Source: Turneriella parva DSM 21527
GTDB taxonomy: Bacteria; Spirochaetota; Leptospiria; Turneriellales; Turneriellaceae
DNA: 64,000 nucleotides
Direction of reading: 5' to 3'
Assembly (NCBI RefSeq): GCF_000266885.1
Contig: NC_018020.1
Coordinates: 1,860,001-1,924,000 of the forward strand
Shown here: positions 24,491 through 49,027 of the stretch, one piece after another
Layout: each line of letters starts with the position of its first letter
How positions within the stretch are numbered: the first letter of the stretch is position 1
Position numbers and translations under genes: made by a program
The notes under the pieces: generated by a model
Seen by the model: the letters and a program-made list of their open reading frames with translations, nothing else
The model's database searches: none
Told to the model about the DNA's origin: nothing

Positions 24491-26353
24491 GTGAAAGCGA
24501 AGTCACTCGCCATTGCCATTATTGCGCTCTGCGGCACCGCCAGCACCGGCGCGGTTCAGGTCGATGACGGGTTTAGCCAGAGCGCCTTGAGCCGGGTCGA
24601 AATTCTGGTGACCGACAAGGCGCTCACGCTTTTGCAGATACAGAAGTTGAAGTTCTCACAACCTGCTGCATCACAGATAGGCCTTAGGGCCACCGAATCT
24701 GTCTGGCTGCGATTGCCCGTCGAATCAGCCGCAGCTGTGAAGGTACCACTCGTCGCCCGCTATGAGTTTCCATGGACAGACCGCGCCGAGTTCTTTGTCG
24801 TCAGAGAAAACGGCGAAGTCATCTCATCATCACTGGGGGGAGACACGGTCAAAGGGCGGCGTACCGAGCGCCTGCCGTTGGTGCGCTTCGAGCTGCAGCC
24901 GCAGGAAAGGCTGACTGTGTATCTGAAAGTCACCACGGTTGCCCGCGCAGCCGCGCAGATCAATCTTTACAGACGTGAATCTCTCTCCCCGCGTGTTTTC
25001 GCCGAGCTGCTCGCGCAAGGTGCCTTTGTCGGTGTCGTGTGCATGCTGCTCATCTTTCATCTGAATATGTACATCGCCACGCGCGACGCGATGCTACGCA
25101 GTTATCTCGGCTATATTTTGACTGTGTCTCTCTTCATGCCGCTGCGCAGCGGTATTTTGCCGCAATTTCTGTTTGGTGAGTATGCCCACCTCAGCGACAT
25201 GGTCTGGGTCATTTTGGTCAGTGCGACTTATTTCACCGGTGTGAGTTCGGCGCGGGCGTTGCTCTCGCTGAAAACCACAGACCCACGCGCCGACCGCCTG
25301 CTCTCTGTTCTGCAGGTACTCACGCTTACACCTGCGCTGGTTCTGTTCGTCGGCAGGCGTGAAGCATTCATTGCTGAAAACATCGCCGCGCTTTTTGTCG
25401 GGCCGCCACTGCTCGTGCTGGGCTTAATGCATGTGTTTCAGAAGCGCCAGCATGCGCTCTATTTCGTCGTTGGCTTTAGCGTACCGATCATTGCCGCGAT
25501 CGCCGATAACCTGGTCGAAGCCGGGGTTTTGCCCGCTTTCGCATTGCGAAACGAAATGTTGCCCGCGGCGATGCTCTTTGAGTTCTTGCTCTTCGCGCAG
25601 ATCATCTATCGCAAGCTCGCCGATTCAGAGACCGCGCGGGTCAGAGACCACGAAAGACTGACCCGCTTTCGCTCAGAACTGGCGTTTGCGAGTGCAATTC
25701 AAAAAAGCCTGTTGCCGCCGCTTGCGCAGACATTCGGCCGCATCGAAGTGCGCGCCGCTTACCGCTCTGAAAAAGCTGTTGGTAACGATTACTTTGATGT
25801 TCTCGAAGCCGGCAAAAACAGCATCGGGGTGCTGCTTACCGATGCCGGTGCTGGCAGGGCCTCGTCACTCGCTGCCGCGCTCGATGTCTCTGCGGTGCGC
25901 ATGGCATTTCGCAATAGTTTTTCAGCCGGCGCAGAACCTGATGTCGTGATGCAGCGCATGTTCGCGATGCTCGAGCCGGTGACGAAGTCGCGCCCGGTGG
26001 CCGCAACATACGTCACGCTCAACACTGACACGGGTTTCGTGCGAGGGTACTTGCATATGAATCCGGTGCCGGTGGTTGTGCGCGCAGGCGGCGCGCGTGA
26101 GGCGATATTTTCAGATAATGAGGATATCCCCCTTACTCAGAAATTTGACCTGCAGCTGCGCCCCGGCGACACATTGGTTCTGGCGACGACCGGCATCGCG
26201 CGGCGCATTAACCTCGTTCGTGACAGACTGCACCCCCGCGAACGCGTCGACAAGATGCAGCAACGGCCGCGTCTGAGTGCGGCGCGAACCAAGCGGCGCG
26301 CGCGCGACGACATGACTCTCATTACACTGCATTACGCCGAGGCTCAGAGTTGA
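24491..26353 (+). CDS. 7TMR-DISM receptor with degenerate SpoIIE/PP2C phosphatase domain
   Basis: 620 residues from GTG: signal peptide, a beta-rich sensor domain (about 25-175), seven TM helices (about 178-375) and a SpoIIE-like domain (about 395-620). The catalytic domain has lost key features: GGDYYD is GNDYFD, DVSGHG is DAGAGR, AGHPP is MNPVP, and the TDG motif is TTG with Thr567 in place of a metal-binding Asp. The late DD (606-607, RDDMT) remains. Phosphatase activity is therefore doubtful; it may bind a partner or regulate the intact paralogue made from the next gene, with which it overlaps by 4 bp (TTGA). The 7TMR-DISM sensor likely binds an unknown ligand outside the membrane. Confidence 0.85.
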   Translation: MKAKSLAIAIIALCGTASTGAVQVDDGFSQSALSRVEILVTDKALTLLQIQKLKFSQPAASQIGLRATESVWLRLPVESAAAVKVPLVARYEFPWTDRAEFFVVRENGEVISSSLGGDTVKGRRTERLPLVRFELQPQERLTVYLKVTTVARAAAQINLYRRESLSPRVFAELLAQGAFVGVVCMLLIFHLNMYIATRDAMLRSYLGYILTVSLFMPLRSGILPQFLFGEYAHLSDMVWVILVSATYFTGVSSARALLSLKTTDPRADRLLSVLQVLTLTPALVLFVGRREAFIAENIAALFVGPPLLVLGLMHVFQKRQHALYFVVGFSVPIIAAIADNLVEAGVLPAFALRNEMLPAAMLFEFLLFAQIIYRKLADSETARVRDHERLTRFRSELAFASAIQKSLLPPLAQTFGRIEVRAAYRSEKAVGNDYFDVLEAGKNSIGVLLTDAGAGRASSLAAALDVSAVRMAFRNSFSAGAEPDVVMQRMFAMLEPVTKSRPVAATYVTLNTDTGFVRGYLHMNPVPVVVRAGGAREAIFSDNEDIPLTQKFDLQLRPGDTLVLATTGIARRINLVRDRLHPRERVDKMQQRPRLSAARTKRRARDDMTLITLHYAEAQS

Positions 26354-28239
26354 AGGCTGCTTCGTTCGCGTTCACGTTCTTGCTGGCGATCGCGGGCCTT
26401 GCGGCTGCCGACCAGCCGAGGCTGCACATCGACGGCGCCTTTCAGGTGAAAGACGCAGCGGGTTATTTGTACTTTCGTCTCACGCAGCAAGATATCGAAG
26501 GCGTCATGCAGCCTGAAAGCGCCTGGTTGCCGCTTACCGCGCCGGTTGTGCAAGAGCGTTTTTCGGGCGACCGGCTTTGGCTCAGGATTTCGCTGGTGAA
26601 TGACAAAAACTTTCCCGCAAATCTGGTGTTGGTGGCCGGTGAAGCGCGCACCGACAAGACACATTTCTATCTCTACCAGGCAGGTAGTCTGCAGAGTGCG
26701 CACGCGGGGGGCGACCTTATAACGCGCAACTCACGGCCCGACTTTCTGGCGGCCCGCTTCGCGTTCACTCTGGCACCCAATTCAGAGGCGCAGATATTTG
26801 TGTTGGTTGAAAATCCGGTTGATCTTGCTGCCGATTTTACCCTGCTGCGCGATTCTGCTTTCGCCGAGTTCGGTGGACGCACCTATCTCATTCAGGGAAT
26901 TTTCTTCGGCGCGATCATGGTGTTGCTGCTGTTTTATGGCGCGATCTATCTGTCGAAGCGCTCGCGTATTGTCGCGGCGTATTTCTGGTATCTGGTCGCC
27001 GCCGGTGTTTTTTTCGCGGCGCGCACGGGGCTGTTGTACCAACATGTCGGCTACCTGTCTGCCGAAATCATGAACGTGCTCGTTGCGCCGTTGCCCGGTG
27101 TCATCTATGCGGCAGGCATTCGCTTCACGCGCGCCTTTCTCGAACTTGCGCGCGGGTCAACAAGCGACAAGATTCTGCGCACCGCCCAGTATGTTGCGCT
27201 TGTACCCGTGCCATTGGCCTTTGTTTCACGGCATTTAACGCGTGATGCCTGCGATTGGCTTTCGCTTATTCTCGGCCCGGGGTTGCTGCTGTATGTCTGG
27301 CTGATTCGCCGGGAAGCCCGAAAGTCGAACCTCTTTTTGCTCGGGTGGTGCTGGCCTATTCTGGTTTCGCTGCTGCAATACACTGGGTTTGACAGCTCTT
27401 ATCTCTTGCGCAATGTGTTGCTGCAGGCGGCGATGCTGGTCGAGTTCGTACTCTTTGCGATATTTGTCGGCCGTGACATCAGCCGCTTTGAGATCGAGCG
27501 CAGCCAGCAGAGTGTCAATTTACTGATGCTGCAAGAAGACCTTGAACAGGCGCGCCGCGTTCATGAAACACTGCTTCCCGTCGGCACACCCGATTTCGCC
27601 GGCCTCGCAATCGCTCAGCTCTACCGGCCCATGAGCGAGCTCGGCGGCGACTATTACGATTGGTTCAGACTGAGCGAACAACGCACCGTGCTGATCGTTG
27701 CCGACGTGACCGGGCACGGTCTGCCGGCCGCTCTCGATGCCGCCGTGGTGCACATTGCCTTTCAGACAGCCGTGGTTGAGGCAGATGACGCTGCGGCAAT
27801 TCTGTCGGCGATGAATGCAAGATTGATCGCGCAGGGTATCGACCGCTGTGTCAGCGCCGTCTGTGCAGTTTACGATCACGCGACCAAAACTTGCGAAATT
27901 GCACTCGCAGGGCACCCCCAGGCGATCGTTGTCAGCGGTAATCGTGCGCTGCCCGTCGGCGAATATGGCCCGCTACTCGGGTTCACGCATCACAGCGAAT
28001 ATATATCTTCGCGAGTGAGCCTGCGCGCAGGTGACCGGTTGTTTCTTTGCACCGACGGGGCTTATGAAATTCCCGAGTCTGAGGCAGACGACGAACATAT
28101 ACAATTTGCCGAGATGCTGGCGTCAAAATCGCACCTGCCGCTGGCCGCAGCACTCGAAGCCACACTCGAACATTTCGACGCGCTCAGACAGAACAAGAGC
28201 TCAGACGATGTGACGTTGTTGGGCGCCGAGGTGAAATAG
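26350..28239 (+). CDS. 7TMR-DISM receptor with intact SpoIIE/PP2C phosphatase domain
   Basis: 629 residues from TTG, overlapping the stop of its paralogue (TTGA). Layout: signal peptide, sensor domain (about 22-170), seven TM helices (about 172-375), a linker helix and the phosphatase (about 395-629). All SpoIIE motifs are intact: LGGDYYD, VADVTGHGLPAA, LAGHPQ, TDG (568-570) and SSDDVTL (616-622). Expected to remove phosphate from an anti-sigma antagonist or similar substrate on an outside signal. No anti-sigma or STAS gene is adjacent, so the target is unknown. Confidence 0.9.
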   Translation: MKAASFAFTFLLAIAGLAAADQPRLHIDGAFQVKDAAGYLYFRLTQQDIEGVMQPESAWLPLTAPVVQERFSGDRLWLRISLVNDKNFPANLVLVAGEARTDKTHFYLYQAGSLQSAHAGGDLITRNSRPDFLAARFAFTLAPNSEAQIFVLVENPVDLAADFTLLRDSAFAEFGGRTYLIQGIFFGAIMVLLLFYGAIYLSKRSRIVAAYFWYLVAAGVFFAARTGLLYQHVGYLSAEIMNVLVAPLPGVIYAAGIRFTRAFLELARGSTSDKILRTAQYVALVPVPLAFVSRHLTRDACDWLSLILGPGLLLYVWLIRREARKSNLFLLGWCWPILVSLLQYTGFDSSYLLRNVLLQAAMLVEFVLFAIFVGRDISRFEIERSQQSVNLLMLQEDLEQARRVHETLLPVGTPDFAGLAIAQLYRPMSELGGDYYDWFRLSEQRTVLIVADVTGHGLPAALDAAVVHIAFQTAVVEADDAAAILSAMNARLIAQGIDRCVSAVCAVYDHATKTCEIALAGHPQAIVVSGNRALPVGEYGPLLGFTHHSEYISSRVSLRAGDRLFLCTDGAYEIPESEADDEHIQFAEMLASKSHLPLAAALEATLEHFDALRQNKSSDDVTLLGAEVK

Positions 28240-46183: not shown

Positions 46184-48919
46184 ACTTTCGGCAGTGTAAT
46201 CAATCAGCACGAAAGTGACATCGTCGTCAAAGTACTCGGGGTTGTGTTCGCGCAGCTCTTTCATAAGGCTGTCTGCCATTTCTTCGCTGTCGAGCTGCGT
46301 TGTTTTGAGAATGATATCCCGCAGCCGGTTATAGCCAAACTCATGACCCGCGCGCGACCGGTTCTCGACAACGCCGTCGGTGACCTGCAGCAGGCGAATT
46401 CCCGATTCGAGGCTGTCTTCGCCTTCTTCATGCTGAATCTCGGGAAATACGCCCAGAAAGCTGCCCCGCGTTTTGCGTTCTTGAATCGTGCCTGAGGGGC
46501 GCGACACGAAATACAGCGGGGGGTGACCTGCGCTGGCGTGCAGAACCTTGCGCCCTTTGAAATCGATGAAATAGTAACTCGCCGTCACAAAGTGGTTGTC
46601 GACCTTATCGCAAAGAATCTGGTTGAGCGCCGTTAGCATTTTACCTGGTCGGGGAGCCAGATGGCGGTTGAGTGAGAATGCCATCTTGACCATGCTCGCA
46701 ATGAGCGCCGCGGGTATTCCATGCCCCGATACATCGGCGATCAGCACGCCCAGGCCTTCTTCGTGTTCGACAAAATCGTAGAAGTCACCGCCGATTTCGG
46801 CCATGGGGTAATAGCGCGCAGCGATGCGAAGCCCCGGCATCTGCGGGTATTTTACCGGCAGCAGAGCCTGCTGAATCTTTTGCGCAACCGAAAGCTCCCG
46901 CTGCAGATTTTCGAGCATGTCTTTTTCACGTACCGATTCTTTGAGAGAGATCGCCGTCTTGACCCTTGCGAGCAAAACTTCAGATTCGATCGGTTTGCTG
47001 ATATAGTCGTTCGCGCCCGCCTCGAAGCCCCGAATCACATCTTCGCTACGGTTCTTGGCCGTGAGCATCAGAATCGGCACTTCATACGAAGTGTATTTAT
47101 TGCGCAAGATGCGACTGACGTCGTAACCCGACATGCCGGGCATCATCACATCGAGCAGAATGGCGTCGGGCACAGGTTCGTGTTCCATATAGTTGATTGC
47201 CTCTTTGCCGCTCTCGGCCACGGTCACTTTGTAGCCGACGAGCGACAGCTGGTTGACGAGCACCTGCAGGTTGACGGGTTCGTCGTCGACGAGCAGAATG
47301 TTGTAACCACGCTTCGTGGGCGTGCCAGCTGTTTCTTTCGGATTTTCTGTCACACGCGCCCGCATTTCATTGGCAATCGATTCTGAAAGCCGCTCGAGCG
47401 GTAACGGGGTTGTTTCGGGCAGCCGGGCCGCAGGTGCAGCGGCGACCGAGTTCAGTTCAAACCAGAATTCGCTGCCCTTACCGGGGGTCGAGTTCACATG
47501 AATGTGTGTGCCGTGCAATTCGGCGAGCTGTTTGCTGACCGAAAGCCCGAGACCAATGCCGCCATAACGCCGCGTATCCGATGACTCGAGTTGTTCGAAT
47601 GAGTTGAAGATACGGGACTGGTCTGCGGCGGCGATGCCAATACCGGTATCTTTCACAGCGATTCTGATGACGCCGTTCTGGTGGCTCGCACCGAGTGTTA
47701 CCTCGCCTTTCTCTGTGAATTTGACCGCGTTGCCGGCGAGGTTATACAATATCTGCGCCAGCCGGTCGCGGTCTGCCATGACCATCGGCAGGTCGTCAGG
47801 CGCTTCAAGTCTGAACGCCAGGTGTTTGGCCTCTGCACCAGGCTGCATCAGCGTTTTAACTTCGTCGAGCAGCTGCCGCAGATCGACCGGCATCGGTGTA
47901 ATCGACACCTTGGTATTGCGAAGTTCTGCCACCTGCAGAATTTTATCGACGAGTGCGGCGAGCCGAATGCCGCTCGACCGTATCACCTGAATGTTGCTGC
48001 GCAGCGGGGCTGACAGTTCGCCGGTCGCGCCGTCGAGCAGAGTGCCCGAAAGACCAATAATACCATTTAAAGGGGTTTTGAGTTCGTGCGAAGTCACCGC
48101 CAGAAAGTCGTCTTTAAGCCTGTCGAGCTCTTTGAGTTCTGCGTTCTTGACCTTTAGTTCGGTCATCGACTGGTCGATCGTTTTCGCCATGCGGTTGAAG
48201 GCGCGTGCCAACTGGCCGAGCTCGTCGCCCGAGCTCGTGCTGATCTCGCTGACAGTCGCATTTTTTTCGAGATTCTCAACGCCCTGCATCAGATCGTGCA
48301 CGGGCTGCGTCACGCGTCGCGCTATAAAGAAGCCCGCGAGCAAGAGCAGTGCAATGACACCTGCAATCGTCGAATACAAGATTGCCCGCAAACGGTAGAT
48401 GGGCGCAGTCACCTCGGCGAGGCTGTAGACCAATTCGACGGTCAGCGCTGCAGGTTTGCCTGTCGGGCCGACCGATGCAATGAAGCGCAGGCACTTTTCA
48501 TCATTTGCGCCGCAGTCGACGAGCCCGAAAGGCGAAGAGGCCCACGCAGCGGAGCTGTTTCCGAACACCTCAGGCAGCGGACTGCCCTGTCGGTCAAAGC
48601 CCGCGATGATGATTTTGTCGCGTGCAGGTTGCGCTGAAGTTAAATATGCTATGGCAGTGAGCAATCCTTCTTTTTCAAGACCTTTGTAGATCGCGCTGAG
48701 CTCGCGCGCGTCGATGCGTGCCGACTTGACTTCGCCCGCATTCATCAGCAGAATATTAAAAACGCTGCGCGCGAAAAGTTTCGCCTGCACGTCGCCGCGG
48801 CTCGTTGCAGCCGCAAGGCGTTCTTTCTCTTGCGTGTCGACGATGTAGACAGAGACAGGCAAGACGCCTGCGAGAATAATCGCGGCAAGCAGCAGAGAAA
48901 TTTTATAGCGAAGGCGCAT
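46181..48919 (-). CDS. Hybrid histidine kinase-receiver-SpoIIE phosphatase
   Basis: 912 residues from ATG 48919 (the open frame begins at 48952). Order: TM helix (about 4-26), periplasmic sensor (to about 178), TM (about 180-200), HAMP (about 201-255), HisKA with His278 in SHELKTP, HATPase (about 385-490), receiver with phosphoacceptor Asp590 (LLDVMMPG), then a SpoIIE PP2C domain (about 672-912) with all motifs: IGGDFYD, ADVSGHGIPAA, SAGHPP, TDG and DDDVT. The layout suggests a self-contained relay in which receiver phosphorylation gates the phosphatase. Target of the phosphatase not in view. Confidence 0.93.
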   Translation of the reverse strand: MRLRYKISLLLAAIILAGVLPVSVYIVDTQEKERLAAATSRGDVQAKLFARSVFNILLMNAGEVKSARIDARELSAIYKGLEKEGLLTAIAYLTSAQPARDKIIIAGFDRQGSPLPEVFGNSSAAWASSPFGLVDCGANDEKCLRFIASVGPTGKPAALTVELVYSLAEVTAPIYRLRAILYSTIAGVIALLLLAGFFIARRVTQPVHDLMQGVENLEKNATVSEISTSSGDELGQLARAFNRMAKTIDQSMTELKVKNAELKELDRLKDDFLAVTSHELKTPLNGIIGLSGTLLDGATGELSAPLRSNIQVIRSSGIRLAALVDKILQVAELRNTKVSITPMPVDLRQLLDEVKTLMQPGAEAKHLAFRLEAPDDLPMVMADRDRLAQILYNLAGNAVKFTEKGEVTLGASHQNGVIRIAVKDTGIGIAAADQSRIFNSFEQLESSDTRRYGGIGLGLSVSKQLAELHGTHIHVNSTPGKGSEFWFELNSVAAAPAARLPETTPLPLERLSESIANEMRARVTENPKETAGTPTKRGYNILLVDDEPVNLQVLVNQLSLVGYKVTVAESGKEAINYMEHEPVPDAILLDVMMPGMSGYDVSRILRNKYTSYEVPILMLTAKNRSEDVIRGFEAGANDYISKPIESEVLLARVKTAISLKESVREKDMLENLQRELSVAQKIQQALLPVKYPQMPGLRIAARYYPMAEIGGDFYDFVEHEEGLGVLIADVSGHGIPAALIASMVKMAFSLNRHLAPRPGKMLTALNQILCDKVDNHFVTASYYFIDFKGRKVLHASAGHPPLYFVSRPSGTIQERKTRGSFLGVFPEIQHEEGEDSLESGIRLLQVTDGVVENRSRAGHEFGYNRLRDIILKTTQLDSEEMADSLMKELREHNPEYFDDDVTFVLIDYTAES

Positions 48920-49027
48920 TGCCACAAGTGCGCGTGTAAATAAGGGCTGCAAGCAATATTACCCTGATGGCTATATTGCGCGCACTAAATTACCTTGACC
49001 TGCCCCAATTCAAATCTGTTATTTCCC

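Follow-up and report, generated by a model that had tools for sequence, protein, structure and literature searches.

The two overlapping genes described here raise the question why a receptor-type phosphatase that has lost residues of its catalytic centre should stand next to, and be translationally coupled with, an intact one of the same design. They belong to Turneriella parva DSM 21527, a free-living spirochaete, and all positions refer to the window, i.e. the whole stretch of 64,000 nucleotides of contig NC_018020.1 that was analysed. Gene A (24491..26353, 620 amino acids) is an open frame with a GTG start and a signal-peptide-like N-terminus, and gene B (26350..28239, 629 amino acids) follows it head to tail; both, with their parts described below, are on the + strand. 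They follow the 7TMR-DISM plus SpoIIE plan that had been read from the letters in the first-pass annotation, and the Pfam domains, coordinates and frames agree with that reading: the ectodomain is of the DISMED2 type, the membrane domain of the 7TMR-DISM type and the PPM domain of the SpoIIE type. In A, the extracellular 7TMR-DISMED2 domain (PF07696, 48.4 bits) covers residues 41-160 (24611..24970) and the seven-helix membrane domain (PF07695, 86.5 bits, also visible as predicted helices) residues 173-371 (25007..25603), and the corresponding scores in B are 43 and 60 bits. With ectodomain and membrane domain above the cut-off, both proteins are members of the 7TMR-DISM receptor class. The SpoIIE domain (PF07228) reaches 130 bits in B and 36.9 bits in A, the latter still above the curated cut-off of 25, which makes A a member of the family by sequence.

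The stop codon of A (TGA, 26351-26353) overlaps the start codon of B (TTG, 26350-26352) in the tetranucleotide TTGA at 26350..26353, and a GAGG lies 8 nt upstream of the TTG, in line with the translational coupling claimed earlier for the pair. Upstream, on the opposite strand, ispG (GcpE) is found, and downstream follow a fatty acid desaturase gene and a gene that we read from its sequence as malic-enzyme-like. A and B are 25% identical over 516 residues and are therefore old paralogues that did not arise by recent duplication.

To judge the state of the catalytic motifs, all 33 SpoIIE domains encoded in the T. parva genome were aligned. The Asp of the TDG motif is present in 32 of these 33 domains, and A is the single exception with Thr567; of 25 related domains, 24 have it. 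The idea that motif-poor SpoIIE domains are common in this genome and A is simply one of them was rejected, since each of the remaining 32 domains keeps this residue. More than one third of the 33 domains (L059, L069-L081 and similar loci) form a divergent subfamily that starts with QKKxF and has NADAMGKS for DVSGHG, AEHP for AGHP and SDGRDD, in which all four Asp are kept.

The motifs of A read GNDY, LTDAGAGRASS, HMNPVP, ATTG and RDDMT, where B has GGDY, ADVTGHG, AGHPQ, CTDG and SDDVT; B thus carries the full set of an active SpoIIE domain (GGDYYD, ADVTGHG, AGHP, TDG, DDVT). According to the alignment, A keeps Asp433 in GNDY (25781..25792) and Asp607-Asp608 in DDMT (26309..26320), and Thr566-Thr567-Gly568 (26186..26194) replace TDG with loss of the metal-ligand Asp. 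TDAGAGRA (25838..25861) replaces ADVTGHG; here Asp451, at the position of the M2 ligand, is kept, GHG is lost and a 3-residue insertion lies nearby. Of the four acidic positions of active SpoIIE domains (GGD, the Asp of DVSGHG, TDG and DD), three are hence retained in A, and AGAGRASS and HMNPVP stand in place of GHG and AGHPP. The earlier description of these losses holds for the TDG Asp, for AGHPP and for the retained GxDY and DDMT; it went too far for DVSGHG, which is lost only in its GHG part.

In SpoIIE, D628, D746 and D795 are putative metal ligands (PMC5468089). By motif, they may be equated with Asp451, Thr567 and Asp607 of A, D628 being the M2 ligand. Judging from the family, the missing equivalent of D746 should disable the two-metal centre, and A is very probably catalytically inactive. 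Residual or altered metal binding by A is possible, given Asp451 and the two other ligand positions. In the explanation that we favour, B would be the working serine/threonine phosphatase of the two.

A first comparison is offered by one other genome of the genus, which contains an orthologous pair in the same order (A 55% and B 59% identical), coupled by ATGA and followed by the desaturase and malic enzyme genes seen in T. parva. The frame of the orthologous A is uninterrupted and degenerate in the same motifs, namely GSDY, TDTGTH, NHMNP, TAG and ED for DD, so that two of the four acidic positions are kept, with Ala in place of the TDG Asp and Glu replacing the first residue of DD. This substitution pattern bears on the reading that A is still active, perhaps on a narrower range of substrates, with a rebuilt metal site in which Thr567 or other residues take the place of the TDG Asp. 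The three remaining acidic positions, the predicted fold and the constraint on the N-terminal part of the PPM domain (dN/dS 0.17) would fit such an enzyme, but the orthologue offers no conserved replacement ligand, the AGHPP motif is gone, and the lost Asp is near-universal in the family and a putative metal ligand in SpoIIE (PMC5468089). We therefore regard a still active A as very improbable.

An inactive domain may be one that is retained or one that is on its way out, and the predicted structure and the pattern of selection are relevant here. The AlphaFold2 model of A, built from five A sequences and of moderate confidence (mean pLDDT 70.8), keeps the PPM fold with two switch helices (residues 459-476 and 483-498), and one continuous helix (residues 356-407, 25556..25711) leads from the last membrane helix into the signalling linker. 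The region after TTG is short and modelled with low confidence. B is modelled in the same layout, its PPM domain with more confidence than that of A.

The dN/dS ratios were obtained from the comparison of two Turneriella species with dS near saturation, hence the values are rough, and differences between parts can be trusted more than the absolute level. The overall ratio of A is approximately 0.24, with 0.27 for the ectodomain, 0.10 for the seven-helix domain and 0.16 for the linker; within the PPM domain it rises from the 0.17 of the first part to 0.47 in the middle and approximately 0.87 in the C-terminal 50 residues. The three PPM parts of B gave 0.08, 0.13 and 0.34. Purifying selection maintains the membrane domain and linker of A, and its catalytic C-terminal half is relaxed. 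Compared to six intact pair proteins, the receptor part and linker of A are about as conserved as those of B, and the PPM parts of A are less so. In the linker (residues 376-412), 26 of 37 residues are identical between A and its orthologue. The switch-helix region (residues 459-494, 25865..25972) is identical at 24 of 36 positions (67%), as compared to 53 of 126 (42%) downstream of it (Fisher p 0.013). Switch region conservation is lower in A than in B (81%), and its excess over the rest of the PPM domain has the same ratio in B, so it is no special signature of A; it says only that the switch helices of A remain under constraint.

These data allow us to weigh the view that A is a decaying gene, which has been drifting since catalysis was lost and survives because of its place upstream of B, whose start requires that A be translated. 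The high ratios in the middle and C-terminal part of its PPM domain, the shortened C-terminal part with low model confidence and a stem branch longer than that of B are what drift would leave behind. Nevertheless, the frame has stayed open in both species, whose A proteins differ at 45% of the residues, the membrane domain and linker are under purifying selection like those of B, and conservation of the receptor part relative to the intact pairs is about equal for both proteins. Decay is hence improbable, though less so than retained activity. In the comparison available, A is maintained by selection and not decaying; the degenerate A is known from two genomes only, so that its conservation amounts to this one comparison. 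The first gene could have been absent or decayed in close relatives, but the one close relative with the pair has it in an intact frame.

At comparable score, both A and B are absent from another five genomes of the genus and from six further members of the family, and a scan with a pair profile across 393 genomes of the phylum placed the pair clade in only five genomes, separated by a wide score gap from other receptors (more than 700 versus less than 390 bits). A without B was found in none of the genomes searched. One scan of public genome contigs for extra copies returned only the orthologue already known (metagenome-assembled Spirochaetota), and at the desaturase locus of three other family members, on short contigs, the pair is absent and the surroundings are different. 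Four further tandem pairs occur in three more distant genomes of the class, one each in G030 and G033 and two in G041, where one pair is cut by the contig edge and the other lacks the end of B. The first gene of these distant pairs has intact motifs wherever they are readable, and so has its partner. The conservation of the pair in relatives, raised as a check in the first-pass annotation, is thus found both in the same-genus orthologue and in the coupled pairs of the three distant genomes. Co-inheritance is seen in six pairs from five genomes (one pair cut by a contig edge), and all six junctions of the clade are 4-nt stop/start overlaps, five of them ATGA and that of T. parva TTGA. The two pairs of G041 are located at G041:C84 (L050) and G041:C429 (L040). 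As a separate observation, a conserved gene for a membrane chemoreceptor-like (MCP) protein lies divergently upstream of the pairs in G041 and G033 (L040:7563-9149, L042:10622-12223).

In receptor trees, the pair proteins form a single clade of 11 (support 100/100), in which the Turneriella A proteins group with the A proteins of the G033 and G041 pairs and the B proteins likewise with their B proteins, at moderate support (82-90). A single clade of all five A proteins was not rejected (p-AU 0.135, with G030_A as a long branch), nor is it demonstrated. A separate or recent tandem duplication inside Turneriella was rejected, because A and B as one clade received p-AU 0.003 and are 25% identical. 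The tree test together with the intact motifs of the distant pairs indicates that the pair is much older than the catalytic loss of A: the tandem duplication is old, and catalysis was lost later, in the Turneriella lineage. What we see is an old pair of two phosphatases turned into a pair of pseudophosphatase and active phosphatase. Given its patchy distribution, the pair may have spread by horizontal transfer.

Which role could an inactive receptor have beside an active one? SpoIIE and RsbU are activated by dimerisation of linker and switch helices, which moves a metal ligand into place, and regulation by dimerisation through these helices is described for the group of SpoIIE, RsbU, RsbP and SiaA (PMC5468089; PMC12143880). 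In the explanation that we favour, A and B would be sister receptors, each built from a sensory domain in the periplasm, seven membrane-spanning helices, a helical linker and a SpoIIE-type domain. Without the TDG aspartate, A would lack a two-metal centre and keep its receptor, linker and switch helices, the parts by which phosphatases of the SpoIIE family dimerise. Since coupled translation makes both proteins together, A would most likely pair with B as its regulatory subunit, as the first-pass annotation had suggested; a signal received by either of the sensory domains might then shift the shared linker and switch and thereby turn B on or off. We give even chances to A being a maintained pseudophosphatase subunit that pairs with B through linker and switch helices, and heterodimerisation of A and B seems to us evenly balanced as well. 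The full picture, an obligate heterodimer of an active phosphatase and a pseudophosphatase, each with its own sensor, that arose from an old co-translated pair in one spirochaete lineage, is more tentative and somewhat below even. The coupled translation also fits two proteins that never come into contact.

The most likely substrates of B would be STAS-type anti-anti-sigma proteins, and the genome contains 22 STAS domains and approximately 10 RsbW-like ATPase domains as possible partners. No such target gene (STAS, RsbW-like) adjoins the T. parva pair, and no STAS gene is shared by the scanned surroundings of the distant pairs, which contain MCP, guanylate cyclase, tRNA synthetase and hydrolase genes.

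Another role is suggested by RssB of E. coli and P. aeruginosa. RssB is described as a pseudo-PP2C, the E. coli protein having lost catalysis (PMC5468089; PMC12143880), and it resembles A in its SpoIIE/PPM fold, helical linker and switch helices. By analogy, A might work alone as a homodimer. Its dead domain would then bind a partner protein, in the phosphorylated or unphosphorylated state, and hold or present it as the sensor of A dictates, and the coupling to B would exist only because both serve one pathway. In favour of such an adapter, RssB is a SpoIIE-fold pseudophosphatase that has kept its switch and works in this way (PMC5468089; PMC12143880), A has kept its SpoIIE fold according to the model, and Foldseek with this model gave RssB as the top match among solved structures, with RsbX and SpoIIE also among the best (E down to 6.5e-9). 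However, active relatives such as B match RssB too, so the match is not specific to A. Moreover, the substrate-side parts of A, the middle and C-terminal PPM regions, are its least constrained ones (dN/dS 0.47-0.87), and A was never seen without B in the genomes searched. The architectures differ as well: RssB is a soluble single protein with a receiver domain in front of its SpoIIE-type C-terminal domain and acts as a protease adapter, and neither a membrane receptor nor an active paralogous partner is involved; A has DISMED2 and seven-helix domains instead of the receiver. An adapter role of A is therefore unlikely, but of the readings other than a subunit paired with B it is the one that we rate highest.

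The remaining known systems are also related to the pair in part. SpoIIE, RsbU, RsbP and SiaA belong to the same catalytic family, of which B has all motifs, but they are described as dimers of one active chain and have other sensory parts, and no inactive partner subunit for them was found in the literature searched. Pseudo-PP2Cs as such are already known, with RssB in bacteria and TAB1 and PHLPP2 in animals (PMC5468089; PMC12143880; PMC12002173). The two eukaryotic proteins resemble A in that a PPM domain without metal ligands was kept for another role (PMC12002173; for TAB1 also PMC5468089), but they have unrelated architectures and are not known as partners of an active PPM receptor. The 7TMR-DISM receptors share with A and B the DISMED2 ectodomain, the seven-helix domain and a variable intracellular output. 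They are usually treated as single receptors, in contrast to T. parva, where overlapping genes form an orthologous pair and one of the two output domains is probably dead. In the open-access papers searched, we came across neither a SpoIIE pseudophosphatase of receptor type nor a receptor pair of the pseudo/active kind, and no paper on 7TMR-DISM together with SpoIIE.

The view of SpoIIE-type activation by linker and switch dimerisation comes mostly from dimers of one chain. Here, a dead partner is seemingly kept beside a live one, and the relatives in which both partners are live show what the pair was like before the loss. This offers a before-and-after system in which to ask if a subunit is able to regulate its partner and by which route pseudoenzymes come about. 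An obligate heterodimer, if true, would be a bacterial counterpart of the receptor pairs that contain a pseudokinase.

Two other SpoIIE loci of the same genome may be mentioned. A second overlapping SpoIIE tandem lies outside the window (G000:C1:1286610-1291897; L086:1111-3270, L063:235-3498); one of its proteins has TPR, the other 7TMR-DISM, HisKA and receiver domains, and all acidic positions are kept in both. Inside the window, on the - strand at 46184-48958, a 925-aa single chain combines HAMP, HisKA, HATPase, receiver and SpoIIE domains, which reads as a fusion of a histidine kinase with a phosphatase under receiver control.
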